A stretch of DNA of 64,000 nucleotides from Paracoccus sp. SMMA_5_TC (lineage in GTDB: Bacteria > Pseudomonadota > Alphaproteobacteria > Rhodobacterales > Rhodobacteraceae). Made by a program: the position numbers and the translations under genes. Location of the stretch: contig NZ_CP102355.1 in the NCBI RefSeq assembly GCF_009696685.2, positions 2,033,501-2,097,500 of the forward strand, given 5' to 3'. Below the pieces are notes generated by a model. It was given only the letters and a program-made list of their open reading frames with translations, made no database searches and was not told the origin of the DNA. Below, in pieces: positions 38,494-50,320 of this stretch; positions within the stretch are counted from its first letter, which is position 1, and each line of letters opens with the position of its first letter.

Positions 38494-39306
38494 ATGGGCA
38501 ACAGATACATGTTTTGCGGGTCAGGCAAGCCGACAAGGGAACATGTATCTGGCAAGTGGTTGAAGAAATACGCCGGCAATTTCGACAGCCCCGCGATCAA
38601 GACGGCGCATACCGTTTCGGGCAGCGATGGAAAACCCCGACCGGGGTTCATGGATCGTCCCGGCAGTCCGCTTGCCCAGACCTCGCGCGTGGTCTGCGCG
38701 GAATGCAACAATGGCTGGATGTCACGTATCGAAGCGGCGATGGAGCGGATATTTCCGTCGTTGCTGGCAGGGGACACATTGGCCTGCACGGCAGGCGAAT
38801 GGGATGTGCTGGAACGCTGGGTGACGCTCAAGTTGGCCATCATTGCCCGCGGTTGCCTGGAAGGCGAAACTGGGGCAAAGGCGATGCAGGTCCGCGAGAC
38901 GGCCGAAGGCTTGTGGCGACAGTTCGCAACCGATCAGGTCGGACAGCATGAGGTGTTGGTGTTCCGGTGCCGTGAACTGCGACACTGGGGCGGTCATAAC
39001 CATGTTTACACCGCGCTTCTTGAACCGAACGGCCGGATGCATCTGCACGATGTTTCCTGCCTTGTATTCGGTCCACTGCTGCTGGTCTGCCAGCGCCGGT
39101 GCTGCGCTGATTGGGTGCCGATCATGCTGCGCGCAGCCAGTATGGGACTGGTCCCGGCGACCCGGACAAACGCGGGCCTGCGCGGCGCAGTCTCAGGGAT
39201 CGATCTGACAAAGGCCGACCGTCTGTTGCGCAGCTACAGCCAGACGCCCCAGGATTTTCGGCCCATCGGTTTTCACCCCAGGGACAGTTCGCCCCGGTCC
39301 GGTTAA
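38494..39306 (+). CDS. HNH/treble-clef-like protein of unknown function
   Basis: This 270-residue protein has an N-terminal motif FCGSGKPTREHVSGKWL and, about 60 residues later, CAECNNGWMS. Together these resemble a widespread family of treble-clef, HNH-endonuclease-like proteins with CxxC-EH and CxxCNNGWMS motifs. Here the first cysteine of the first pair is tyrosine (Tyr5, codon TAC, one base from TGC), so metal binding may be impaired. The remainder is unlike anything I recognise. Its base composition looks lower in GC than neighbours. It overlaps the convergent regulator gene by four bases and may be a recent arrival. Confidence 0.55.
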   Translation: MGNRYMFCGSGKPTREHVSGKWLKKYAGNFDSPAIKTAHTVSGSDGKPRPGFMDRPGSPLAQTSRVVCAECNNGWMSRIEAAMERIFPSLLAGDTLACTAGEWDVLERWVTLKLAIIARGCLEGETGAKAMQVRETAEGLWRQFATDQVGQHEVLVFRCRELRHWGGHNHVYTALLEPNGRMHLHDVSCLVFGPLLLVCQRRCCADWVPIMLRAASMGLVPATRTNAGLRGAVSGIDLTKADRLLRSYSQTPQDFRPIGFHPRDSSPRSG

Positions 39307-40160
39307 CGATGCCGGCGAAAGAAGCGGGCGCGGTCGTAAAGCGTCTCGAGTCGTTTCAGTCGCGGCTCGGTTTCGTCCCAGCTCAGCGTCTGCACCGCGG
39401 TCAGCAGCGTTTCCACCAGCACCAGGATCGACACCGTCGAATCCCAGGCGCTGGGGGCCTCGATATGGCAGGCAAGGCAGTGGCGGGCATGGGCGGCCGC
39501 CGGGCTGCACCAGCGATCGGTGATCAGCACGACCTCGGCCCCCTGGTCCACCGCCATCTCGACCAGTTGCAGCACCGAATTTTCATAGCGGCGGATGTCG
39601 AAAACCAGGAACACGTCGCCGGGCTGCATGTCCAGCAGTGCCGGCGGCCAGGTGTTCGATGTGCCCGACAGCAGCGTGACATCGGCGCGGACCACCTTCA
39701 TCAGCGTGACGAAATAATCGGCATGGGCATGGGTGATACGCCCGCCCATGGCAAAGATCTGGCGTGATTTGTCCGCCAGCAGGCGCGCCGCGGCGTCGAA
39801 TTCGTCGTGATCGATCTGGCCCAGGGTGGCTTGCAGATTGGCCACCACGGCATCGGCGAATCGGTTCAGGATATGCGTGTCGGGCGCGCCGCCCGCCCAG
39901 CGGTCATGCTTGGCCAGCGGCGACAGCAACATCGCCTCGACCTCGCTGCGCAGGGCGGATTGATAATCGGGATAGCCCTTGAAACCCAGCTTCTGACACA
40001 GGCGCACCACCGTGGGGGTGGAAACCTTGGCCGCCCGTGCCAGTGTGGTGATCGAGCCCAGCGCCGCCACCGGATACTGTCCAAGAATATGGGTAGCCAA
40101 CTGGCGCTCGGCCCGTGTCAGATCGGGCAGGGCGGTGCGCATGCGCTGTTCGATGTCCAT
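39303..40160 (-). CDS. MurR/RpiR family transcriptional regulator
   Basis: The 285-residue protein has an N-terminal helix-turn-helix (LTRAERQLATHILGQYP, then AAKVSTPTVVRLCQKLGFKG) and a C-terminal SIS sugar-isomerase-like domain (QIFAMGGRITHAHADYFVTL, GDVFLVFDIRRYENSVLQL). RpiR regulators bind phosphosugars or other small acids. It is divergent from the catabolic cluster starting at 40280 and is the natural candidate to control it. An inverted repeat lies in the shared gap. Confidence 0.92.
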   Translation of the reverse strand: MDIEQRMRTALPDLTRAERQLATHILGQYPVAALGSITTLARAAKVSTPTVVRLCQKLGFKGYPDYQSALRSEVEAMLLSPLAKHDRWAGGAPDTHILNRFADAVVANLQATLGQIDHDEFDAAARLLADKSRQIFAMGGRITHAHADYFVTLMKVVRADVTLLSGTSNTWPPALLDMQPGDVFLVFDIRRYENSVLQLVEMAVDQGAEVVLITDRWCSPAAAHARHCLACHIEAPSAWDSTVSILVLVETLLTAVQTLSWDETEPRLKRLETLYDRARFFRRHR

Positions 40161-40228
40161 CGCAACCTCACGTCACACGGGGCGCGCGGCGCGCCGTTTC
40201 GGCAGCCTTGGCGCGCATGCGGGCAGTC

Positions 40229-40276
40229 GTCAAGAAAAGATTGTAACAGGAAAGACATCAAAGAAAAATTCTTGAC
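40229..40276. promoter_or_regulatory. Inverted repeat in the rpiR-catabolic operon gap
   Basis: GTCAAGAA (40229-40236) and TTCTTGAC (40269-40276) are exact reverse complements, 32 bases apart, in an A-rich gap between divergent genes. They may be paired half-sites for the RpiR regulator. The second half also contains a TTGACA (40273-40278). Confidence 0.45.
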
Positions 40277-40279
40277 AGA

Positions 40280-41104
40280 ATGGGCGCTGGCATGAACGCT
40301 GACGAAAAAAGGGGGGTGAATCGGATCGTGTCAGAGGCCGTCTTGATTCAGGATTACGGGTCTTTTCCCGCGCTTGTCGAAAATCGCGAGGCTGCGGGGC
40401 GGATCGTTCTGGTGTGCGAACACGCTTCTTGCCGCATCCCTGAAGCCTGGGGCGGCCTGGGGCTTGCCGACGACGCCGCACGGGCCCATGTCGCCTGGGA
40501 TCCGGGGGCGCTGGATCTGGCGCGCGGGCTGGCGGCGCGGCTGGATGCCTGCCTGGTTCATGCCGCGGTCAGCCGGCTGGTCCATGATCTGAACCGGTCC
40601 CCCGATCACCCTGGCGCGATGCCGGCCAGGTCCGAGTTGTTCGACATTCCGGGCAATGCAACAATTTCCCCGGCCGAGCGGCTGGCGCGGATGCGGGCGG
40701 TCTACATTCCGTTTCACACCGATCTGCATGGGGTGATCGCACAGCGTCTTGCGCTGGGTCTCAGGCCGGTGATCGTGACCATCCATTCCTTTACGCCGGT
40801 CTATTTCGGGCAGCCGCGGGATGTCGAATTCGGCATTATCCACGACACCGACGACCGCTTTGCCCGCGCGGTATTGCAGAATGCGCCGCAGGCAATGGTG
40901 GCGCGACTGAACCAGCCCTATTCCGCGGCGGATGGGGTCACCCATACCCTGCGGCTGCATGCGACGCCCTATGGACTCGCCCATGCGATGCTGGAAATTC
41001 GCAACGATCTGATTGCCACGCCAGCTGCCGCCGCCGCCATGGCCGACAGGCTGGCGCCCTGCCTGCGTGGGGCGCTTGCCGATACGAACCAGGGGGAGGA
41101 CTGA
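40280..41104 (+). CDS. N-formylglutamate amidohydrolase homologue
   Basis: The protein of up to 274 residues has the family pattern IVLVCEHASCRIPEAWGGLG, HVAWDPGALDLARGLA, SRLVHDLNRSPDHPGAM and VIVTIHSFTPVYFG, with the metal-binding Glu and His residues of the zinc-type amidohydrolase fold. Known members split N-formylglutamate to glutamate and formate in histidine breakdown, but no other hut gene is nearby. Beside a glutamine-synthetase-like ligase it could instead split a glutamyl or formyl amide. The start is uncertain: ATG 40280, ATG 40292 or GTG 40328, the last with a strong G-rich ribosome site. Confidence 0.85.
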   Translation: MGAGMNADEKRGVNRIVSEAVLIQDYGSFPALVENREAAGRIVLVCEHASCRIPEAWGGLGLADDAARAHVAWDPGALDLARGLAARLDACLVHAAVSRLVHDLNRSPDHPGAMPARSELFDIPGNATISPAERLARMRAVYIPFHTDLHGVIAQRLALGLRPVIVTIHSFTPVYFGQPRDVEFGIIHDTDDRFARAVLQNAPQAMVARLNQPYSAADGVTHTLRLHATPYGLAHAMLEIRNDLIATPAAAAAMADRLAPCLRGALADTNQGED

Positions 41105-41105
41105 G

Positions 41106-41645
41106 ATGCCGCGCGCGCTGGTCAATTTCGTGCGCCTGGTTGATCGCATGAATTACGGCATCGGCCGTCTGGCCATGTTCCTGCTGTTCGTGCTGATGGG
41201 CGTGCTGATGTGGTCGACCCTGTCCAAGGCGCTGTTCACCCCGGCGCTGTGGACGCTGGAGATGGCTCAGTTCGTCATGGTCGCCTATTGGGTTCTGGGC
41301 GGCCCCTATGCAATGCAGATGAACAGCCATGTGCGGATGGACCTGTTCTATGCCAAGCTGTCCCCGGTGCGGCAGGCGTGGTGGGATGCGTTCACCGTGC
41401 TGGCGCTGATCTTCTATCTTGGCGTCATGCTGTATGGCGCGGTGGATTCCACCATTTATTCGTTTGCTTATGCCGAGCGCAGCCCCACGGCATGGCGGCC
41501 GCCGATGTGGCCGATCAAGGTGATCCTGTGCGTCGGTTTCAGCCTGATGCTGCTTCAGGCGCTGGCGGCCCTGGTCCGTGATCTGGCCACCATCCGCGGG
41601 GTACCGATCCCGCCCGGCCCCGCACAGAAGGAGCCTGCGGCATGA
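41106..41645 (+). CDS. TRAP transporter small permease (DctQ type)
   Basis: The 179-residue protein has four membrane segments (near residues 18-38, 50-70, 90-112 and 130-155) and the DctQ-type region EMAQFVMVAYWVLGGPYAMQ. It pairs with the large permease at 41642 and a periplasmic binding protein at 43030. It starts one base after the amidohydrolase stop and overlaps the large permease by four bases. Confidence 0.9.
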   Translation: MPRALVNFVRLVDRMNYGIGRLAMFLLFVLMGVLMWSTLSKALFTPALWTLEMAQFVMVAYWVLGGPYAMQMNSHVRMDLFYAKLSPVRQAWWDAFTVLALIFYLGVMLYGAVDSTIYSFAYAERSPTAWRPPMWPIKVILCVGFSLMLLQALAALVRDLATIRGVPIPPGPAQKEPAA

Positions 41646-42982
41646 GCTACGAGATGATCGCGCTGTTGATGTTCTCGACCATGCTGCTGATGATGATGAC
41701 CGGGCAGCGGGTGTTTGCGGTGATCGGCTTTGTCGCCGTGTTCTCGGCGCTGCTGCTGTGGGGCACCGGGGGCGAGCGGATGGGCTTTTCCTCGGCCATC
41801 AAGCTGATGAAATGGTATCCGCTGCTGTCGCTGCCGATGTTCGTGTTCATGGGCTATGTCATGAGCGAGGCGCGGCTGGCCGACGATCTTTACCGCATGT
41901 TCCACATCTGGTTCGGACGCGTGCGCGGCGGGCTGGCGATCGGGACCATCCTGCTGATGGTGCTGATTTCGGCGATGAACGGGCTGTCGGTGGCGGGCAT
42001 GGCCATCGGCTCGACCATCGCGCTGCCCGAGCTTTTGCGTCGGCATTACGACAAGCGCATGGTGACCGGGGTCATCCAGGCGGGGTCCAGCCTGGGCATC
42101 CTGATCCCGCCTTCGGTCGTGCTGGTGCTTTACGCCATGATCGCCCGCGCACCGGTTAGCGAATTGTGGCTGGCGGGGATCTTGCCGGGGCTGATGATGG
42201 CGGCGCTGTTCGTGCTGTTGATCGTCGTGCGCTGTGGGTTGCAGCCCGAACTGGGGCCGGCGATTCCCGAACAGGAACTTCAGGCGATCAGCCGGTCGGA
42301 AAAGATGCGCAGCCTGCGCGCTGGGCTGCTGCCTTTCGCGATCTTTGGCGGCATGATGCTGCCTTTCATCTATGGCTACACCTCGCTGGTGGAAAGCAGC
42401 GTGATCGGCGTGCTGATGACGGTGGCGGGCGCGGTGGCCAAGCGGCGCTTCAACCGCCAGGTGTTCGAGGTCGCCACCCGCAACACGCTGGGCATCACCT
42501 GCATGTTCATGTGGGTCATCCTGGCCGCGCTGTCCTTTGGCGCCGTGTTCGACGGGCTGGGCGCGGTCAAGGCGGTGGAAAACCTGTTCGTGCAAAAGCT
42601 GCACCTGTCGCCCTGGACCATCCTGATCCTGATGCAGCTGTCGTTCCTGGTCATGGGCATGTTCCTCGATGATACGGCGATGCTGGTCATCGTGGCGCCG
42701 CTGTATGTGCCGCTGGTCGCCAGCCTCGATTTCGGCATGCCGCGGGCGGATGTGCTGGTCTGGTATGGCGTGCTTTACACCATGACCTGCCAGATCGCCT
42801 ATCTGACCCCGCCCTTTGGCTACAACCTGTTCCTGATGCGCGCCTTTGCGCCCCGCGACATCACCATGGGCGACATCTATTCGTCGGTCTGGCCCTTTGT
42901 GCTGGTGATGGTGCTGGGGCTGGCGCTGATCATCGCCTTTCCACAGATCGCGCTGTGGCTGCCCAATCAGATCTATCCATAG
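41642..42982 (+). CDS. TRAP transporter large permease (DctM type)
   Basis: The 446-residue protein has about 12 membrane segments and DctM motifs such as SAMNGLSVAGMAIGSTIALPELLRR, split around GVIQAGSSLGILIPPSVVLVLY, and FLDDTAMLVIVAPLYVPL. It carries solute with sodium across the inner membrane. The binding protein gene follows 47 bases later, after a hairpin. The order Q-M-P is common. Confidence 0.95.
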   Translation: MSYEMIALLMFSTMLLMMMTGQRVFAVIGFVAVFSALLLWGTGGERMGFSSAIKLMKWYPLLSLPMFVFMGYVMSEARLADDLYRMFHIWFGRVRGGLAIGTILLMVLISAMNGLSVAGMAIGSTIALPELLRRHYDKRMVTGVIQAGSSLGILIPPSVVLVLYAMIARAPVSELWLAGILPGLMMAALFVLLIVVRCGLQPELGPAIPEQELQAISRSEKMRSLRAGLLPFAIFGGMMLPFIYGYTSLVESSVIGVLMTVAGAVAKRRFNRQVFEVATRNTLGITCMFMWVILAALSFGAVFDGLGAVKAVENLFVQKLHLSPWTILILMQLSFLVMGMFLDDTAMLVIVAPLYVPLVASLDFGMPRADVLVWYGVLYTMTCQIAYLTPPFGYNLFLMRAFAPRDITMGDIYSSVWPFVLVMVLGLALIIAFPQIALWLPNQIYP

Positions 42983-42983
42983 A

Positions 42984-43002
42984 GGTCCGGCCGAACCGGA
43001 CC
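42984..43002 (+). promoter_or_regulatory. Hairpin between TRAP permease and binding-protein genes
   Basis: GGTCCGG and CCGGACC pair around a CCGAA loop, just after the permease stop and 28 bases before the binding-protein ATG. With no T-run it is more likely to stabilise or process the mRNA than to end it, which would raise binding-protein levels. Confidence 0.45.
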
Positions 43003-43029
43003 CGAACCCACCACAGGAGAGGTAACATC

Positions 43030-44070
43030 ATGACGACTTCCCGACGTTCATTCCTGACCAAGGGCGCCATCGCCGGCGCCGCAACGATCGCAAGCCCCGC
43101 CGTGCTGCGCGCGCAGGATGTCATCAAGTGGCGCTTGCAGACCTATGCCGGGGCGGCGCTGGCCGAACAGGTGGTCAAGCCCGCCGTCGACCTGTTCAAC
43201 CGCCTGGCCGAAGGCCAGATGCAGATCGAACTTTACACATCGGATCAGCTGGTGCCGACGGGCGAACTGTTCCAGGCCATGCAGCGCGGCACCATCGACG
43301 CCGTGCAGTCGGACGACGATTCCATGGCCTCGCCGACCGAGGTCACGGTCTTTGGCGGCTATTTCCCGCTGGCGCTGCGCTATAGCCTGGATGTTCCGGT
43401 GCTGTTCAACAAATACGGCCTGAAACAGATATGGGAGGACGAATACGCCAAGGTCGGGGTCAAGCACATCTCGGCCGGTTCCTGGGATCCGTGCCACTTT
43501 TCGACCAAGGATCCGATCAACAGCCTGGCGGATCTGCGCGGCAAGCGCATCTTCACCTTTCCGACCGCGGGGCGCTTCCTGTCGCAGTTCGGCGTGGTGC
43601 CCGTCACCCTTCCTTGGGAGGATATCGAGGTCGCCGTCCAGACCGGCGAGCTTGACGGTATCGCCTGGTCGGGCATCACCGAGGTCTATACCGTCGGCTG
43701 GTCGAACGTGACCAATTACTTCCTGACCAACAACATCTCGGGCGCCTGGATCGGCCATTTCTTTGCCAACATGGACCGCTGGAACGCGCTGCCGCCCAAC
43801 CTGCAAGAGCTGATGGCGGTCTGCTTCGAATCCAGCCACTATTATCGCCAGCACTGGTATTGGGGCGGCGAGGCCGATCTGCGTATCAATGGCGGCAAGC
43901 TGAAACTGACCGCGATCCCGGACGAGGAATGGGCCCAGGTCGAAGAGGCGGCGGTGAAATTCTGGGACGAGATCGCCGCCGAATCCGAGGTCAAGGCCAA
44001 GGTCGTTCAGATATTCAAGGAATACAACGATCTGATGAAAAAGGCCGGGCGACCCTATCGCTACGGCTGA
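43030..44070 (+). CDS. TRAP transporter substrate-binding protein (DctP type), Tat-exported
   Basis: The 346-residue protein starts with a twin-arginine signal (SRRSFLTKGAIAGAATIAS, arginines 5 and 6) and a likely cleavage after RAQ near residue 25. The mature part has DctP features, such as LADLRGKRIFTFPTAGRFL and VQTGELDGIAWSGITEVYT. It captures the solute in the periplasm for the permease pair upstream. Relatives bind organic acids and related solutes; the ligand here is unknown. Start ATG 43030 follows GGAGAGG. Confidence 0.93.
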   Translation: MTTSRRSFLTKGAIAGAATIASPAVLRAQDVIKWRLQTYAGAALAEQVVKPAVDLFNRLAEGQMQIELYTSDQLVPTGELFQAMQRGTIDAVQSDDDSMASPTEVTVFGGYFPLALRYSLDVPVLFNKYGLKQIWEDEYAKVGVKHISAGSWDPCHFSTKDPINSLADLRGKRIFTFPTAGRFLSQFGVVPVTLPWEDIEVAVQTGELDGIAWSGITEVYTVGWSNVTNYFLTNNISGAWIGHFFANMDRWNALPPNLQELMAVCFESSHYYRQHWYWGGEADLRINGGKLKLTAIPDEEWAQVEEAAVKFWDEIAAESEVKAKVVQIFKEYNDLMKKAGRPYRYG

Positions 44071-44163
44071 AGCTGCTCCTGGCGGGGCTGCGACATGGGG
44101 CGTCCGGCCTGCGGGCGCCCCGGATATACCGAACGACACGGAACTGCTGCTGGGGAGAGGGCA

Positions 44164-45531
44164 ATGCCGGGCAATCTGACGCTTGAGGAACTGAAGGAAC
44201 TGGTCGACAGGGGCGATATCGACACGGTGATCGTGGCCGGCATCGACATGCAGGGCCGGCTGATGGGCAAGCGGTTCCATGCGCGTTTCTTTGTCGATGG
44301 CGGACATCACGAAACCCATTGCTGCAACTATCTGCTGACCGTGGACATGGAGATGTTCACCGTTCCGGGTTACAAATCGGCCAGTTGGGAAACCGGTTAT
44401 GGCGATTATGTCCTGAAACCCGACATGGCGACGCTGCGCCGCATTCCCTGGCTGCCGGCCACGGCGCTGGTCCTGGGCGATTTCCTGGACCATCACAGCC
44501 ATGCCGAGGTGGCGATCAGCCCGCGCGCCATCCTGAAGCGCCAGGTCGCCCGTGCCCGCGCCATGGGCTTCGAACCGATGATGGCGACCGAACTTGAATT
44601 CTACCTGTTCGAGAACAGCTATGACCACCTGCGCGATCATGGCTGCGAAAACCTGCGCCCGGTCGGCAGCTACAACGAGGATTACAACATTTTCCAGACC
44701 TCGAAAGAGGAAGACGTGATGCGCGCCATCCGCAACGGTCTTTACGGCGCCAACATCCCCGTCGAAAACACCAAGGGCGAGGCCGAGGTCGGCCAGGCCG
44801 AGGTGAACTATCGCTATTCCGACGCGCTGGACACCGCCGACAATCACGCGATCATCAAGACCGGGGTCAAGGAAATCGCCCATGCGGCGGGACGATCTGT
44901 GACCTTCATGGCCAAATACGATCACCGCCGCGCGGGTTCGTCGGCGCATATTCACCAAAGCCTGTGGGGCCTGGACGGCAAGCCCGCCTTTGTCGACCCG
45001 GGCCAGGAATACGGCATGTCGGCGCTGATGCAGCATTATCTGGCCGGGCAACTGGCCCATGCCACGGAAATCACCGCCTTTCTGGCGCCCTATGTCAACA
45101 GCTACAAGCGGTTCTGCGTGGGCATGTTCGCCCCCACCAAGGCGGTGTGGAGCGCCGACAACCGCACTGCGGGTTTTCGTGTCTGCGGGGCGGGCACCAA
45201 GGGGGTGCGGGTCGAATGTCGCATTCCCGGCAGCGACGTGAACCCGTATCTGGCCTGCGCGGCGCTGCTTGCTGCGGGGCTTGACGGTGTCGAACGCAAG
45301 CTGGCACTGGAACCCGAGATGAAGGGCGACATGTATGCCGCCCGCGACGCCCGCGAGATCCCGCGCAACCTGCGTGACGCGGCGGCGGCGCTTGACGGCT
45401 CGGCGTTCCTGCGCGCCGCGCTTGGCGATGATGTCGTCGAACACTATCACCACGCCGCGCAGTGGGAAATCGCCGAGGCCGACCGCGTGGTCACGGATTT
45501 CGAGCGTCAGCGGCTGCTCGAGCGGGCGTGA
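44164..45531 (+). CDS. Glutamine synthetase-like gamma-glutamyl ligase
   Basis: The 455-residue protein belongs to the glutamine synthetase superfamily, with TELEFYLFENSYD and the Mg/Glu sites in NIPVENTKGEAEVGQAEVNY, the ATP region GSSAHIHQSLW, and CRIPGSDVNPYLACA. It differs from housekeeping GlnA and resembles ligases joining glutamate to amines (PuuA, GmaS or ethanolamine-type). The tyrosine adenylylation loop of GlnA is not evident. Between a TRAP transporter and two dehydrogenases, it probably activates an imported amine. Confidence 0.88.
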   Translation: MPGNLTLEELKELVDRGDIDTVIVAGIDMQGRLMGKRFHARFFVDGGHHETHCCNYLLTVDMEMFTVPGYKSASWETGYGDYVLKPDMATLRRIPWLPATALVLGDFLDHHSHAEVAISPRAILKRQVARARAMGFEPMMATELEFYLFENSYDHLRDHGCENLRPVGSYNEDYNIFQTSKEEDVMRAIRNGLYGANIPVENTKGEAEVGQAEVNYRYSDALDTADNHAIIKTGVKEIAHAAGRSVTFMAKYDHRRAGSSAHIHQSLWGLDGKPAFVDPGQEYGMSALMQHYLAGQLAHATEITAFLAPYVNSYKRFCVGMFAPTKAVWSADNRTAGFRVCGAGTKGVRVECRIPGSDVNPYLACAALLAAGLDGVERKLALEPEMKGDMYAARDAREIPRNLRDAAAALDGSAFLRAALGDDVVEHYHHAAQWEIAEADRVVTDFERQRLLERA

Positions 45532-45578
45532 GGCCCCAGGTTTTTTCCGGGCCCATACCGGCCCGCATGAGGTGAAGA

Positions 45579-46958
45579 ATGAAACCGATCCAATTGATAT
45601 CGCCGGTGGATGGCCGGATCTATGCCGAACGCATGCCGCTGTCGCCCGAGGAGGCGCGCGCGGCCTGCGACCGGGCGCGCGCGGCGCAAAGGGACTGGGC
45701 GGCCCGACCGCTCGACGAACGCATCGCCCTGGTCAAGTCCGGTGTCGCACGGCTCAATGACATGGCCGATGTCGTGGTCCAGGAACTCGCCTGGCAGATG
45801 GGCCGGCCCACCCGCTACGGCGGGGAATTCGGCGGCGTCAATGCGCGCACCGATTACATGGCCAGCATCGCCGCCGAAACGCTGGCGCCGCTGATGGTCG
45901 AGGATTCGGCAAGCTTTCGCCGGTATCTGGCGCGCGAGCCGGTGGGCGTCGTGTTCATCATCGCGCCCTGGAACTATCCCTATCTGACCACGATCAACAC
46001 GCTGGTGCCGGCGCTGATCGCGGGCAATACGGTGGTGCTGAAACATGCCAGCCAGACCCTGCTGGTCGGCGAACGCCTGGCCGAGGCGTTTCACGCCGCC
46101 GGCATCCCCGAGGACGTGTTCCAGAACCTGGTGCTGGACCATGCCACGACGGAATCGCTGATCCAGGCACGAGCCTTCAACTTCATCAACTTCACCGGCT
46201 CGGTGGCGGGCGGCGCGGCCATCGAACGGGCCGCGGCCGGCACCTTTACCGGCCTGGGTCTGGAACTGGGCGGCAAGGATCCCGGCTATGTCCGCGCCGA
46301 CGCCAATCTGGATGCGGCCGTCGAGACGCTGATGGACGGCGCGATGTTCAATGCCGGTCAGTGCTGCTGCGGCATCGAGCGCATCTATGTTCACGAAAGC
46401 CAGTACGACGCCTTTGTGGACAAGGCCGTGGCCTGGGCCAACAGCCTCAGGCTGGGCAACCCTTTCGAGGCCGAAACGACCCTGGGCCCGATGGCGCATC
46501 GCCGCTTTGCGCAGGTAGTGCGCGATCAGATCGCCGAGGCGGTCGCGGCGGGGGCAAGGCCGCTGATCGACCCGGCCGCCTTCCCGGCCGATGACGGCGG
46601 CGCCTATCTGGCCCCGCAGGTGCTTGTGAATGTCGATCACTCGATGCGGGTCATGGTCGAGGAAAGCTTTGGCCCGGTGGTCGGCATCATGAAGGTTGCC
46701 AGCGACGACGAGGCGATCGGGCTGATGAACGACAGCCCCTATGGACTGACCGCCAGCATCTGGACCGAGGATTACGATACCGCCGCGCGCATCGGTGCCC
46801 GGATCCAGACCGGCACCGTCTTCATGAACCGCGCCGACTATCTTGACCCGGCGCTGTGCTGGACGGGCTGCAAGGATACCGGTCGCGGCACCTCGCTGTC
46901 CTATCTGGGCTTTCATTCGGTCACCCGGCCGAAATCCTATCACCTCAAGAAGGTCTGA
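45579..46958 (+). CDS. Aldehyde dehydrogenase
   Basis: The 459-residue NAD(P)-dependent enzyme has FIIAPWNYPY, the glycine motif NFTGSVAGG, general base Glu229 in LELGGKDP and catalytic Cys263 within GQCCCG, exactly 34 residues later as in the family. It would oxidise an aldehyde intermediate to the acid. It lies 47 bases after the ligase gene and five before the alcohol dehydrogenase gene, so it is probably the second oxidation step of the same route. Confidence 0.93.
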   Translation: MKPIQLISPVDGRIYAERMPLSPEEARAACDRARAAQRDWAARPLDERIALVKSGVARLNDMADVVVQELAWQMGRPTRYGGEFGGVNARTDYMASIAAETLAPLMVEDSASFRRYLAREPVGVVFIIAPWNYPYLTTINTLVPALIAGNTVVLKHASQTLLVGERLAEAFHAAGIPEDVFQNLVLDHATTESLIQARAFNFINFTGSVAGGAAIERAAAGTFTGLGLELGGKDPGYVRADANLDAAVETLMDGAMFNAGQCCCGIERIYVHESQYDAFVDKAVAWANSLRLGNPFEAETTLGPMAHRRFAQVVRDQIAEAVAAGARPLIDPAAFPADDGGAYLAPQVLVNVDHSMRVMVEESFGPVVGIMKVASDDEAIGLMNDSPYGLTASIWTEDYDTAARIGARIQTGTVFMNRADYLDPALCWTGCKDTGRGTSLSYLGFHSVTRPKSYHLKKV

Positions 46959-46963
46959 CCGCA

Positions 46964-48124
46964 ATGACGCACAGCGTTCCCAACCGGAACTGGTCCTATC
47001 CCACCGCCATCAAGTTCGGCGTCGGCAGGTTGGCCGAACTGGCCGAACACTGCCAGGCCGCCGGCATCCGCCGGCCGCTTCTGGTGACCGACCGCGCGCT
47101 GGCGGCGCTGCCGATCACCACCCAGGCCCTGGACGTGCTGGAGGCCGCCGGCCTTGGCCGCGCGGTCTTTGCCGAGGTTGACCCGAACCCGCACGAAGGC
47201 AACATGGCCGCCGGGATCGCCGCCTATCGCGAGGGCGGGCATGACGGGGTGATCTGCTTTGGCGGCGGCTCGGCGCTGGACCTGGGCAAGATGATCGCGC
47301 TGATGGCGCATCAGCCGCCAGAACTGAGCGTGTGGCAGCTTGAGGACATCGACGACTGGTGGACACGTGCCGATGCCGCGGCCATCGCGCCGATCATCGC
47401 GGTGCCCACCACCGCCGGCACCGGTTCCGAGGTCGGGCGCGCAGGCGTGCTGACCAACAGCGCAACACATAAGAAGAAGATCATCTTTCATCCGCGGCTG
47501 ATGCCTGCCATCACCATCTGCGATCCGGCGCTGACGGTGGGGATGCCGAAATTCATCACCGCCGGGACCGGCATGGACGCGCTGGCGCATTGCCTCGAGG
47601 CCTATTGCAGCCCGCATTATCACCCGATGAGCCAGGGCATCGCGCTCGAGGGGATGCGTCTGGTGTTCGAGAATCTGCCGCGCGCCTATGCCGCGCCCGA
47701 TGATCTGCAGGCGCGCGCCCACATGATGAGCGCGGCCGCCATGGGGGCCGTCGCCTTCCAGAAGGGGTTGGGCGCGATCCACAGCCTCAGCCACCCGGTC
47801 GGAGCGGTCTATAACACTCATCACGGCACCACCAATGCGGTGGTGATGCCCATGGTGCTGGATTTCAACCGCCCCGCGGTAGAAGAACGCATCGCCGCCG
47901 CCGCCGCCTATCTGGGAATTGCCGGGGGCTTTGACGGTTTCCGGCAGGCGGTGATGCAGCTGCGCGCCGATCTGGCCATTCCGCCCGATCTGACGGCGCT
48001 GGGTGTCAGGGCCGAGGATCTGGACATGTTGACCGACATGGCGCTTGAGGATCCGTCCTGCGGCGGCAACCCGGTCGAGATGACGCGCGACAACACCCGC
48101 GCGCTGTTCGAGGCCTGCATGTGA
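46964..48124 (+). CDS. Iron-containing alcohol dehydrogenase
   Basis: The 386-residue protein is a group III alcohol dehydrogenase. It has the nucleotide-binding CFGGGSALDLGKMIA, PTTAGTGSEVGR, and the metal ligands in GMDALAHCLEAY, IHSLSHPVGAVYNTHHG. It would oxidise an alcohol to the aldehyde used by the dehydrogenase encoded just upstream. Start ATG 46964 is five bases after the previous stop; the longer frame back to 46856 overlaps that gene and is not used. A terminator follows. Confidence 0.93.
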   Translation: MTHSVPNRNWSYPTAIKFGVGRLAELAEHCQAAGIRRPLLVTDRALAALPITTQALDVLEAAGLGRAVFAEVDPNPHEGNMAAGIAAYREGGHDGVICFGGGSALDLGKMIALMAHQPPELSVWQLEDIDDWWTRADAAAIAPIIAVPTTAGTGSEVGRAGVLTNSATHKKKIIFHPRLMPAITICDPALTVGMPKFITAGTGMDALAHCLEAYCSPHYHPMSQGIALEGMRLVFENLPRAYAAPDDLQARAHMMSAAAMGAVAFQKGLGAIHSLSHPVGAVYNTHHGTTNAVVMPMVLDFNRPAVEERIAAAAAYLGIAGGFDGFRQAVMQLRADLAIPPDLTALGVRAEDLDMLTDMALEDPSCGGNPVEMTRDNTRALFEACM

Positions 48125-48205: not shown

Positions 48206-48700
48206 TCACTGCTGCGGCAGGGTCACGCGATAGAAGGGGGCCTTGGCCTTTGCAGCGTCGGTCACCGGGACCAGCCTTTCGGTGGGGGTGGCGGGCAGGC
48301 TGCGCAGCCAGGTAATCAGCGCCTGCAAGTCCTCGGGCGTCAGCGCCGCGTAAGAGGTCGCCGGCATGATCGGCGCCAGCTTGTGCCCGTCGCGCGAAAT
48401 GCCGCCTATGATGGCCGCGGCGATTTCGGCATCGGTCCAGTCGCCAAGGCCCGAGGCATCGGGCGTCAGGTTCGGCGGCCAGAAGATGCCCATTCCCGGG
48501 ATCTCGAAGCCGACAGTGCCGCCGGACAGGGTGGCGCCGGCGACCGGGGCCCCATCCGGCCCGCGCGGCATGTGGCAGCCGGCGCAATCCATGATCGCGC
48601 CAAGATATGCGCCGCGCGCCAGCTGATCGGCCGCGTGGTCGGCGGCCAGGGCAGGGGTGGCGATGATGCCCAACAGCATCGGCAGTGCCAGGATCTTCAT
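48206..48700 (-). CDS. Periplasmic c-type cytochrome
   Basis: The 164-residue protein has a signal peptide ending ATPALAA and one haem motif CAGCH (Cys39, Cys42, His43). A probable axial methionine lies in LAPIMPATSY, with WTDAEIAAAIIGGI and LTPEDLQALITWLRSLP as in cytochromes serving membrane dehydrogenases. It follows the flavoenzyme gene on the same strand after 40 bases and is its likely electron acceptor. Confidence 0.88.
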   Translation of the reverse strand: MKILALPMLLGIIATPALAADHAADQLARGAYLGAIMDCAGCHMPRGPDGAPVAGATLSGGTVGFEIPGMGIFWPPNLTPDASGLGDWTDAEIAAAIIGGISRDGHKLAPIMPATSYAALTPEDLQALITWLRSLPATPTERLVPVTDAAKAKAPFYRVTLPQQ

Positions 48701-48740
48701 GGTTCTGCTCCTTTCAGATCATATCAAGCCCTTGGACGGG

Positions 48741-50096
48741 TCATTCGGCGGCCAGGGCGGTGGCAAACAGCGGCGTGCCGAACAGGCCGTCCGGATCGAA
48801 ACGGTTGCGCAGATCGGCCAGCCGCATCGCGGCCTCGGCCGAATGGCACGGCAAGGTGCCGCCGGGACGGTCCAGATCGCACAGGCCGGCATAGGCACCC
48901 TGCGCCAGCGGTGCCACATCGTCGCCCAGCCGATGCAGCCAGTCGGCGTTGCGCGCATCCTCGGCCGCATCCGTCCACAGCGCATAGACGGCGGCGAAAA
49001 TGCGGCCGTCGAGGCTGAAGGCGGCATCCAAAGGCAGCGGTGCAGCCTTGGGGGCCAGCGTCAGCACGGCAAAGCTGCGCTCGGATGGCGCGTGCGCCAT
49101 GGCGGCGACCATGCGCGCCAGCACCGCATCGAACCCGGCGTCGGACCACAGGGAATCGCTGCGATAGCGCAATCCGGCCGGGACCGAAGGTTCGGTTGCC
49201 TGGTAAAGCCCGGCCAGCGACGACGACATCGGGCCGATGGTTTCCAGTGCGGGCGGCGCGCCGAGGCCCAATTGCCGATGGATTTCAGCGGCAGAAACGG
49301 TGCTGTCGGCAAATACGGTGGCGATCGCGGCCAGCATCGGGCCTTGCGGGCCGGGGGTGACCTGGACCGTGAACTCGACCTCGGCCGGGGCGCGCGTCAT
49401 CGCCTGTTCGGCCCATTCCGCGACGGGGTGCGCCATGGTGCCCGGATAGACCCGGACCACCGTTTCGATGGCGGCCGGCGCCGGTTTCAAGGCCAGTTCC
49501 CAGTCCGTCACCACGCCGAAGAAACAGGGCCCGCCACCGCGCACGGCCCAGAACAGATCCGGGTTTTCGCGGGGCGAGGCGGTGACACAACGGCCATCGG
49601 CCAGCACCACACGGGCCGCCTTGACCAGGCCGCAGGCCATGCCCCAGGCGCCGCTGTTCCAGCCTACGCCGCCCGCCAGCAGATAGCCGCTCATCGGGAC
49701 GCTGGCGCAATGGCCCAGTGGAAAGCCCAGCCCATGCCGGTCCAATTCCTGAGCAAGCTGCAAATTCGTCACCGCCGGACCGATCCGGGCGCTGCGGCTG
49801 GCGGCGTCGATCTGCATCCCGGCCAGCGCGCCCAGGTCGATCACCATGTCGGCACGGGCGGCAACGCCGGTCATGTGATGGCCGCCGCCGCGGGGCGCGA
49901 CACTCAGGCCGTGGGCGGCGGCAAAGCGCACGCCGTGCTGCACATCCGCGACCGAAGCGGCGCGCAGGATGATCCGCGCCTGACGCGCGGGCTTGCGGCC
50001 GTTCCAGATCAGCCGGTCGTGATGGGCGGCAAAGGCGGGTTCATGCGCGGCAACCACACTGCCGGTGAGCTGACGACTGAGATGGTCGAGGTTCAT
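48741..50096 (-). CDS. FAD-binding oxidoreductase, berberine-bridge-enzyme type
   Basis: The 451-residue protein has the PCMH-type FAD domain (IILRAASVADVQHGVRFAA, APRGGGHHMTG with the histidine that can hold flavin covalently, and GYLLAGGVGWNSGAWG) and a C-terminal berberine-bridge tail ending NRFDPDGLFG. A cysteine in LGHCASVPMSG may give a second covalent link. Such enzymes oxidise alcohols, sugars or amines. No export signal is seen from ATG 50096. Start 50096 is preferred since residues upstream are low-complexity. The cytochrome gene follows. Confidence 0.85.
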   Translation of the reverse strand: MNLDHLSRQLTGSVVAAHEPAFAAHHDRLIWNGRKPARQARIILRAASVADVQHGVRFAAAHGLSVAPRGGGHHMTGVAARADMVIDLGALAGMQIDAASRSARIGPAVTNLQLAQELDRHGLGFPLGHCASVPMSGYLLAGGVGWNSGAWGMACGLVKAARVVLADGRCVTASPRENPDLFWAVRGGGPCFFGVVTDWELALKPAPAAIETVVRVYPGTMAHPVAEWAEQAMTRAPAEVEFTVQVTPGPQGPMLAAIATVFADSTVSAAEIHRQLGLGAPPALETIGPMSSSLAGLYQATEPSVPAGLRYRSDSLWSDAGFDAVLARMVAAMAHAPSERSFAVLTLAPKAAPLPLDAAFSLDGRIFAAVYALWTDAAEDARNADWLHRLGDDVAPLAQGAYAGLCDLDRPGGTLPCHSAEAAMRLADLRNRFDPDGLFGTPLFATALAAE

Positions 50097-50320
50097 TCCT
50101 GTCCTTTTCCCGGGCAGGGTGTGCCCGATATGCTGGCGGTCCGGCGCGGCGCGACGGCCCGGTTGGCGATGTCCGGCGCCTTGCGGGTTCGGCCGCCCCG
50201 GGGTCGGGGATTGCTGCACACCGCCTGTCGCCTTGGGCGCAGTGATACGCGCGCCGCAGGCTTCAGGCATGCTAAGTCTCTGGACAGGAAAGCGTAAAAT
50301 ATTGCTAAGCGGCTTTGGGC

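Follow-up and report, generated by a model that had tools for sequence, protein, structure and literature searches.

The window, a 64,000-nucleotide stretch of DNA from Paracoccus sp. SMMA_5_TC (contig NZ_CP102355.1, positions 2,033,501 to 2,097,500), contains a cluster of eight genes, the coordinates of which are provided in Table 1. A gene for a MurR/RpiR-family regulator is divergent from the other seven, which lie on the plus strand as an operon. None of the eight is interrupted, and in a Pfam search with the window proteins each scored above the gathering score of its family. As can be seen, a ligase of the glutamine synthetase family, an iron-dependent alcohol dehydrogenase, an aldehyde dehydrogenase and a PF05013 amidohydrolase are all encoded together, along with the three components of a tripartite ATP-independent periplasmic (TRAP) transporter. 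On the basis of orthology and of published descriptions of such genes, from which the substrate and every reaction are taken, the operon very probably encodes ethanolamine utilization by gamma-glutamylation, as in Chromohalobacter and Phaeobacter.

Table 1 Positions of the cluster genes and of the upstream control site within the window
Feature	Position	Strand	Evidence and remarks
MurR/RpiR-family regulator	39303-40160	-	HTH_6 PF01418, 59 bits; SIS PF01380, 57 bits; counterpart of MED193_10021
Conserved promoter-operator, TTGTAACAG-19-TTCTTGACAG	40241-40278	+	-35-like TTGACA, 40272-40277; palindrome AAGAA-AAA-TTCTT, 40261-40273
PF05013 amidohydrolase, predicted gamma-glutamylglycine amidohydrolase (GGAH)	40328-41104	+	FGase PF05013, 134 bits
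TRAP small permease (EtoV)	41106-41645	+	DctQ, 80 bits
TRAP large permease (EtoW)	41642-42982	+	DctM, 204 bits
TRAP solute-binding protein, EtoX/Csal_0678 orthologue, predicted ethanolamine binder	43030-44070	+	DctP, 78 bits
Glutamine-synthetase-like ligase, predicted gamma-glutamylethanolamide synthetase (ETAGA)	44164-45531	+	Gln-synt_C PF00120, 350 bits
Aldehyde dehydrogenase (ALDH), predicted gamma-glutamylacetaldehydeamide dehydrogenase (GAADDH)	45579-46958	+	Aldedh PF00171, 388 bits
Fe-alcohol dehydrogenase (Fe-ADH), predicted gamma-glutamylethanolamide dehydrogenase (GETADH)	46964-48124	+	Fe-ADH PF00465, 152 bits; ADH_Fe_C PF25137, 155 bits

The genes had been reported at these places in an earlier, sequence-only reading of the same DNA, and the Pfam matches and open reading frames bear this out, with some of the starts corrected. 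Those listed for the small permease, the binding protein, the ligase, the ALDH and the Fe-ADH were read from the sequence and are the likely ones. The longest open reading frame of the amidohydrolase begins at 40280, and a second candidate ATG lies at 40292. Because both would fall within the promoter, the start was placed at the GTG at 40328, which is probably the correct one.

A search of PDB sequences with the solute-binding protein revealed Csal_0678, represented by entries 4uab and 4xf5, as the best solved relative at 608 bits; the second best scored 75 bits. The second entry for this sequence, 4xf5, presumably carries an alaninol-like ligand. The window protein and Csal_0678 are identical at 253 of 318 residues (80%), and Glu 218 of the former aligns with the glutamate at chain index 217 of the latter, such that the acidic platform residue is retained. 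Csal_0678 derives from Chromohalobacter salexigens, and in entry 4uab it is complexed with ethanolamine, which is held by Glu 220 (PMC12410723). We infer, from the offset in numbering, that Glu 220 in that description, chain index 217 and Glu 218 of the window protein are equivalent. The EtoX protein of Phaeobacter binds ethanolamine with a Kd of 7.9 μM, and the other compounds named in that account were not bound (PMC10132767). Elsewhere in the window genome there is one further match to the cluster binding protein, at 26% identity. Also in favor of the assignment, the two solved structures nearest to the ligase, 5dm3 (598 bits) and 11zs (565 bits), stand well clear of every other one (180.5 bits or less). 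The sole PDB match for the amidohydrolase is 2odf (Atu2144), at 259 bits.

The closest published counterpart of the entire cluster is that of Phaeobacter sp. MED193, in which MED193_10021-10056 are described as RpiR-GGAH-EtoV-EtoW-EtoX-ETAGA-GAADDH-GETADH (PMC10132767, Figure 5 legend and Table 2). By locus tag the eight genes are identical in kind and order to those of the window, the Phaeobacter order being known from the tags rather than from strands. Five of the Phaeobacter operon proteins were elevated on phosphoethanolamine, and the operon genes were said to be closely related to the ethanolamine-use genes of C. salexigens and Agrobacterium tumefaciens, with credit given to Vetting 2015 (PMC10132767). 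The C. salexigens enzymes are tabulated as PF00120, PF00465, PF00171 and PF05013 (PMC9397018, Table 2), and the last of these appears there in print as a gamma-glutamylglycine amidohydrolase. Thus, in the C. salexigens/A. tumefaciens C58 pathway, the four C. salexigens enzyme families match those of the window.

A further likeness is provided by the GlnA4 pathway of Streptomyces coelicolor, which includes a glutamine-synthetase-like ligase, an aldehyde dehydrogenase and a proposed release step by a member of the formylglutamate amidohydrolase family (PMC6529630). It differs in that a short-chain dehydrogenase (Figure 2 legend) takes the place of the window Fe-ADH, and a TRAP importer is not mentioned in the passages of that paper concerned with the pathway. 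The same paper, citing its reference 54, regards the pathway of C. salexigens as an in silico prediction, and hence the sources disagree on how far that pathway was demonstrated.

The sequence-only reading had envisaged glutamylation of an amino alcohol, oxidation of the alcohol to the aldehyde and then to the acid, and release of glutamate. This is the same as the published reading of such operons. Its pathway logic was probably right, with ethanolamine as the best candidate for the substrate. It had further held that a TRAP importer combined with an N-formylglutamate-type amidase would be new; that claim does not stand, given that the Phaeobacter operon carries both at matching places. The operon represents a known pathway in an arrangement already described in another genome, and it is ordinary rather than new.

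In the proposed pathway, the TRAP transporter would bring in ethanolamine, and the ligase would couple its amine to the gamma-carboxyl group of glutamate at the expense of ATP. The Fe-ADH would then convert the hydroxyl group to an aldehyde, from which the ALDH would produce gamma-glutamylglycine. Finally, cleavage of this compound by the PF05013 amidohydrolase would give glycine and free glutamate again. The divergent RpiR protein would serve as the repressor of the operon, acting at the site that overlaps the -35 element. The sequence comparisons themselves establish the genes and their order, the orthology of the binding protein, and the conservation of both the block and the promoter-operator.

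To place the cluster in a wider context, 299 Pseudomonadota genomes, sampled evenly, were employed; 31 of them, the window genome included, contain the ligase at E ≤1e-90. The sole listed genome of the same genus has no ligase at E 1e-90. The 30 other loci (11 from the same family, 16 from the same class and three from other classes) show the ALDH after the ligase in 27 cases and the Fe-ADH after it in 29, with ligase, ALDH and Fe-ADH kept together in 27. At two loci (L150 and L155) the ligase and the Fe-ADH are kept with no ALDH match between them. In 23 of the 30 the amidase gene lies upstream of that for the ligase, a divergent RpiR gene lies upstream in 22, all three TRAP genes are present in 11, and the complete eight-gene set is found in 10. 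Given that other families and classes of the Pseudomonadota carry the block as well, the grouping is not due to chance.

A closer set was assembled by searching genome contigs with the ligase. Relatives were confirmed in 315 cases, and the best 80, which are 76-84% identical, were retained. A locus was counted if 5.3 kb or more of sequence was available upstream of the ligase and 2.7 kb or more downstream; 59 of the 80 qualified, the other 21 being cut by contig ends. The presence of a gene was scored by tblastn with the window proteins at E 1e-10. The script gene calls, which are crude in the high-GC relatives and took some antisense frames as genes, served only for finding neighbors. The ALDH and Fe-ADH genes follow the ligase on the same strand in all 59 loci. 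All eight genes are present in 13, all but the amidase in five, and RpiR together with the amidase, lacking the TRAP genes, in 19. Co-occurrence elsewhere, on which the sequence-only reading had staked its proposal, was thus observed both in close relatives and across the phylum.

Several observations weigh against the ethanolamine assignment, the first group of which concerns genes that are missing. In the stretch examined, RpiR, the amidase and the TRAP genes are all absent from 22 of the 59 close loci, which keep the ligase, the ALDH and the Fe-ADH. Seven of the 30 phylum-sample loci lack the amidase and 19 have no TRAP genes. Within the 27 genomes having amidase-less full loci in the close set, the closest match to the cluster amidase is 35-41% identical in 26, and one genome has no relative. 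One of the 27 (G001) has, in addition, a 47-residue broken amidase fragment that is 51% identical. The window genome, too, contains a 36% identical relative of its cluster amidase (L003), and for this reason such a paralogue may stand in for the amidase in the genomes that lack it. No ethanolamine model is matched by the permeases that occupy the TRAP place at L137 and L151; their match is to another amino-acid permease model, with scores far under the cut-off. At L147 the gene upstream of the ligase belongs to the lactate permease family. An amino-acid permease-like gene follows the Fe-ADH at that locus.

The second group concerns the proteins themselves. Among the matches listed, none of the four enzymes is named at NCBIfam cut-offs, those for the ALDH covering 25 of 44 families. 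The two best PDB matches to the ligase, 5dm3 and 11zs, were both deposited as glutamine synthetase; the source of 5dm3 we take to be C. salexigens. The DGSS residues of GlnA belong to its ammonia site. In an admittedly weak comparison, the column of the DGSS aspartate is occupied by proline in the window ligase and by aspartate in three of 14 aligned cluster ligases, and that of the second serine by lysine in the window ligase and by serine in one of the 14. Since aspartate is still found in three of them, the ammonia site has not been cleanly lost. The own-genome paralogue L090, a wrong-frame product of 275 residues that lacks the glutamine synthetase motifs, was left out of this comparison, and L087 carries a false N-terminal extension. 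Lastly, Phaeobacter EtoX was elevated on phosphate starvation alone as well (PMC10132767, Table 2).

Transport in the TRAP-less genomes was investigated further. EtoX was sought in 33 of them (every one of the 22 genomes with bare loci, plus 11 of the 19 that have RpiR and the amidase), and a relative of 56-73% identity was found elsewhere in 15. Seven of these 15 places were fetched. In five (L164-L168), the three TRAP genes lie together with no other cluster genes, forming a lone transporter set with an EtoX-like protein of 56-60% identity away from the ligase locus. The remaining two show RpiR at 54% identity and an ALDH match at 32% (L163), or weak RpiR and amidase matches at 31% and 41%, respectively (L169).

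Among 13 phylum-sample loci that were read gene by gene, an amino-acid-permease-type transporter of ∼500-540 residues takes the place of the TRAP genes, directly upstream of the ligase, in at least five (L135, L137, L151, L153 and L157); L152 is likewise arranged but lacks the amidase. Six permeases were run against the models. For those at L135:6890-8389 and L152:6582-8252, the best NCBIfam model is the ethanolamine permease TIGR00908, with scores of 367 and 372 bits, respectively, against a cut-off of 381.75. These two replacements hint at ethanolamine, both matches being below the cut-off and the other permeases uninformative.

The alternative that fares best, although it too is improbable, is that the same chemistry operates on other amino alcohols or on a broader range of them. 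L-Alaninol (2-aminopropanol), for example, would end up as alanine, much as in the Ipu isopropylamine route. The reactions would be identical, the alaninol-like ligand presumed for 4xf5 would fit, and such a range is partly compatible with the use of ethanolamine. The cluster genes, however, do not include an Ipu-type amine oxygenase. The affinity of Phaeobacter EtoX for ethanolamine and the response of the operon proteins to phosphoethanolamine (PMC10132767) likewise argue for ethanolamine itself.

In the Puu pathway of Escherichia coli, a glutamine-synthetase-like ligase gamma-glutamylates an amine, and glutamate is released later; the substrate, the oxidase and the release enzyme all differ from those of the window operon. 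The degradation of putrescine or another polyamine in this way is very unlikely for the window. Whereas the ligase does match the gamma-glutamylputrescine synthetase model NF045547, its score of 192 bits is far under the cut-off of 650, the eight genes include neither a PuuB-type oxidase nor a PuuD-type class I amidotransferase, and the Fe-ADH would be left without a role.

Least credible of all is a side operon of histidine utilization, in which the PF05013 enzyme, true to its Pfam family name of N-formylglutamate amidohydrolase, would be a deformylase and the remaining genes unrelated: the hut genes are far off with a PF05013 gene of their own, and 23 of the 30 phylum-sample loci have the cluster enzyme upstream of the ligase. 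The window genome contains four PF05013 genes, one of which (258 bits) adjoins a HutH-family gene with a urocanase gene close by (C1:481593-487246). These hut genes are ∼1.6 Mb from the cluster, and the cluster PF05013 gene is not beside hutH or hutU. No tblastn match was found between the hut-associated PF05013 gene and the cluster amidohydrolase at E 1e-10 (L001). The earlier remark that there are no hut genes therefore applies within the cluster and fails for the genome as a whole. The window genome also contains four genes of the glutamine synthetase family. A Eut-type route via ethanolamine ammonia-lyase was considered as well and was ruled out by the finding of no EutB matches in the window genome, which is 99.9% complete, with the E. 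coli control being positive.

In the region between the divergent RpiR and amidohydrolase genes lies the conserved promoter-operator listed in Table 1. Exact copies of its palindrome, AAGAA-3-TTCTT, occur in 14 of the 66 intergenic regions that separate RpiR from the adjacent gene, and in each of 20 shuffles no motif was found more than twice. When TTGTAACAG and TTCTTGACAG were required as a pair, with two or fewer mismatches in each and a separation of 20-45, 42 of 44 close intergenic regions (the window included) and three of 22 others matched; the shuffles gave a mean of 0.06 per 66 and a maximum of one. Given that shuffling preserved nothing beyond base content and that the close loci share ancestry, the contrast with the flanks outweighs the count. 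At three or fewer mismatches the promoter-operator has a single match in the window genome, as does the reversed-pattern control. With a tighter spacing of 27-30, there was a match in only two of the 22 close loci without RpiR, and on this basis the promoter-operator goes with RpiR among close relatives. Of those two matches, one, in L009, resembles a decayed site, and the other, in L068, a chance occurrence. The promoter-operator was found by alignment in the window set and is not part of the passages of PMC10132767 that describe the Phaeobacter operon.

RpiR probably represses the operon from the site overlapping the -35 element, the binding itself and the ligand sensed being predictions. 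Members of the RpiR family with SIS domains are usually thought to sense phosphosugars. We suggest, tentatively and with the balance somewhat against it, that ethanolamine or a gamma-glutamyl intermediate is the signal to which RpiR responds in switching the operon at this site, and that in many close relatives a leader peptide may add control.

This putative peptide would be encoded by a short open reading frame with the ten-residue core CWPRKPEFGG that lies 86-140 nucleotides upstream of the ligase start (in L012, L015, L016, L062 and others) and does not occur in the window. With selection at the DNA level, the reading frame was found in 43 of 77 close loci, both with and without RpiR, and it appears to be translated because mismatches by codon position number 11, 6 and 104. 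In 32 genomes, picked largely for having the reading frame, there was one match in 28 and none in four, including the window genome; the reversed control gave zero. The reading frame has no Pfam or NCBIfam match. A second candidate leader peptide, NMG.VEIQRQAKAS, found in 22 of the 77 loci, was rejected: in 18 of them the string forms the C-terminal end of the amidohydrolase, and in the four without that gene it is what remains of the tail. At L059, L063, L068 and L069, the amidohydrolase gene is missing, and a small open reading frame upstream of the ligase ends in amidohydrolase C-terminal residues (NMGMVEIQRQAKAG). This reading frame is likely a relic of the loss of that gene.

A gene for a protein dependent on flavin adenine dinucleotide (FAD) follows the Fe-ADH in 46 of the 53 close loci with enough flanking sequence (for example, L025:13090-14331) and is not present in the window. 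Its nearest models, all below their cut-offs, are D-amino-acid dehydrogenase and ThiO, and its product might oxidize the glycine that is formed. The nearest relative in the window genome is 36% identical and located on another contig. In the window, the next gene downstream of the operon is cytochrome c-like (48206-48700) and lies on the opposite, minus strand. Directly past the operon (48206-50270, minus strand), this small cytochrome c-like protein adjoins one with an FAD-binding domain.

What had appeared to be a new combination of genes is the described ethanolamine pathway, and no new discovery is claimed for it. The operon provides one more comparable example of how phospholipid headgroups enter nitrogen and carbon metabolism. 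Added here are the conserved promoter-operator beside RpiR, the exchanges of transporter and the conserved tiny open reading frame of the relatives. With the promoter-operator, a pathway whose transporter is reportedly ubiquitous in the ocean (PMC10132767) gains a defined control site that can be tested.

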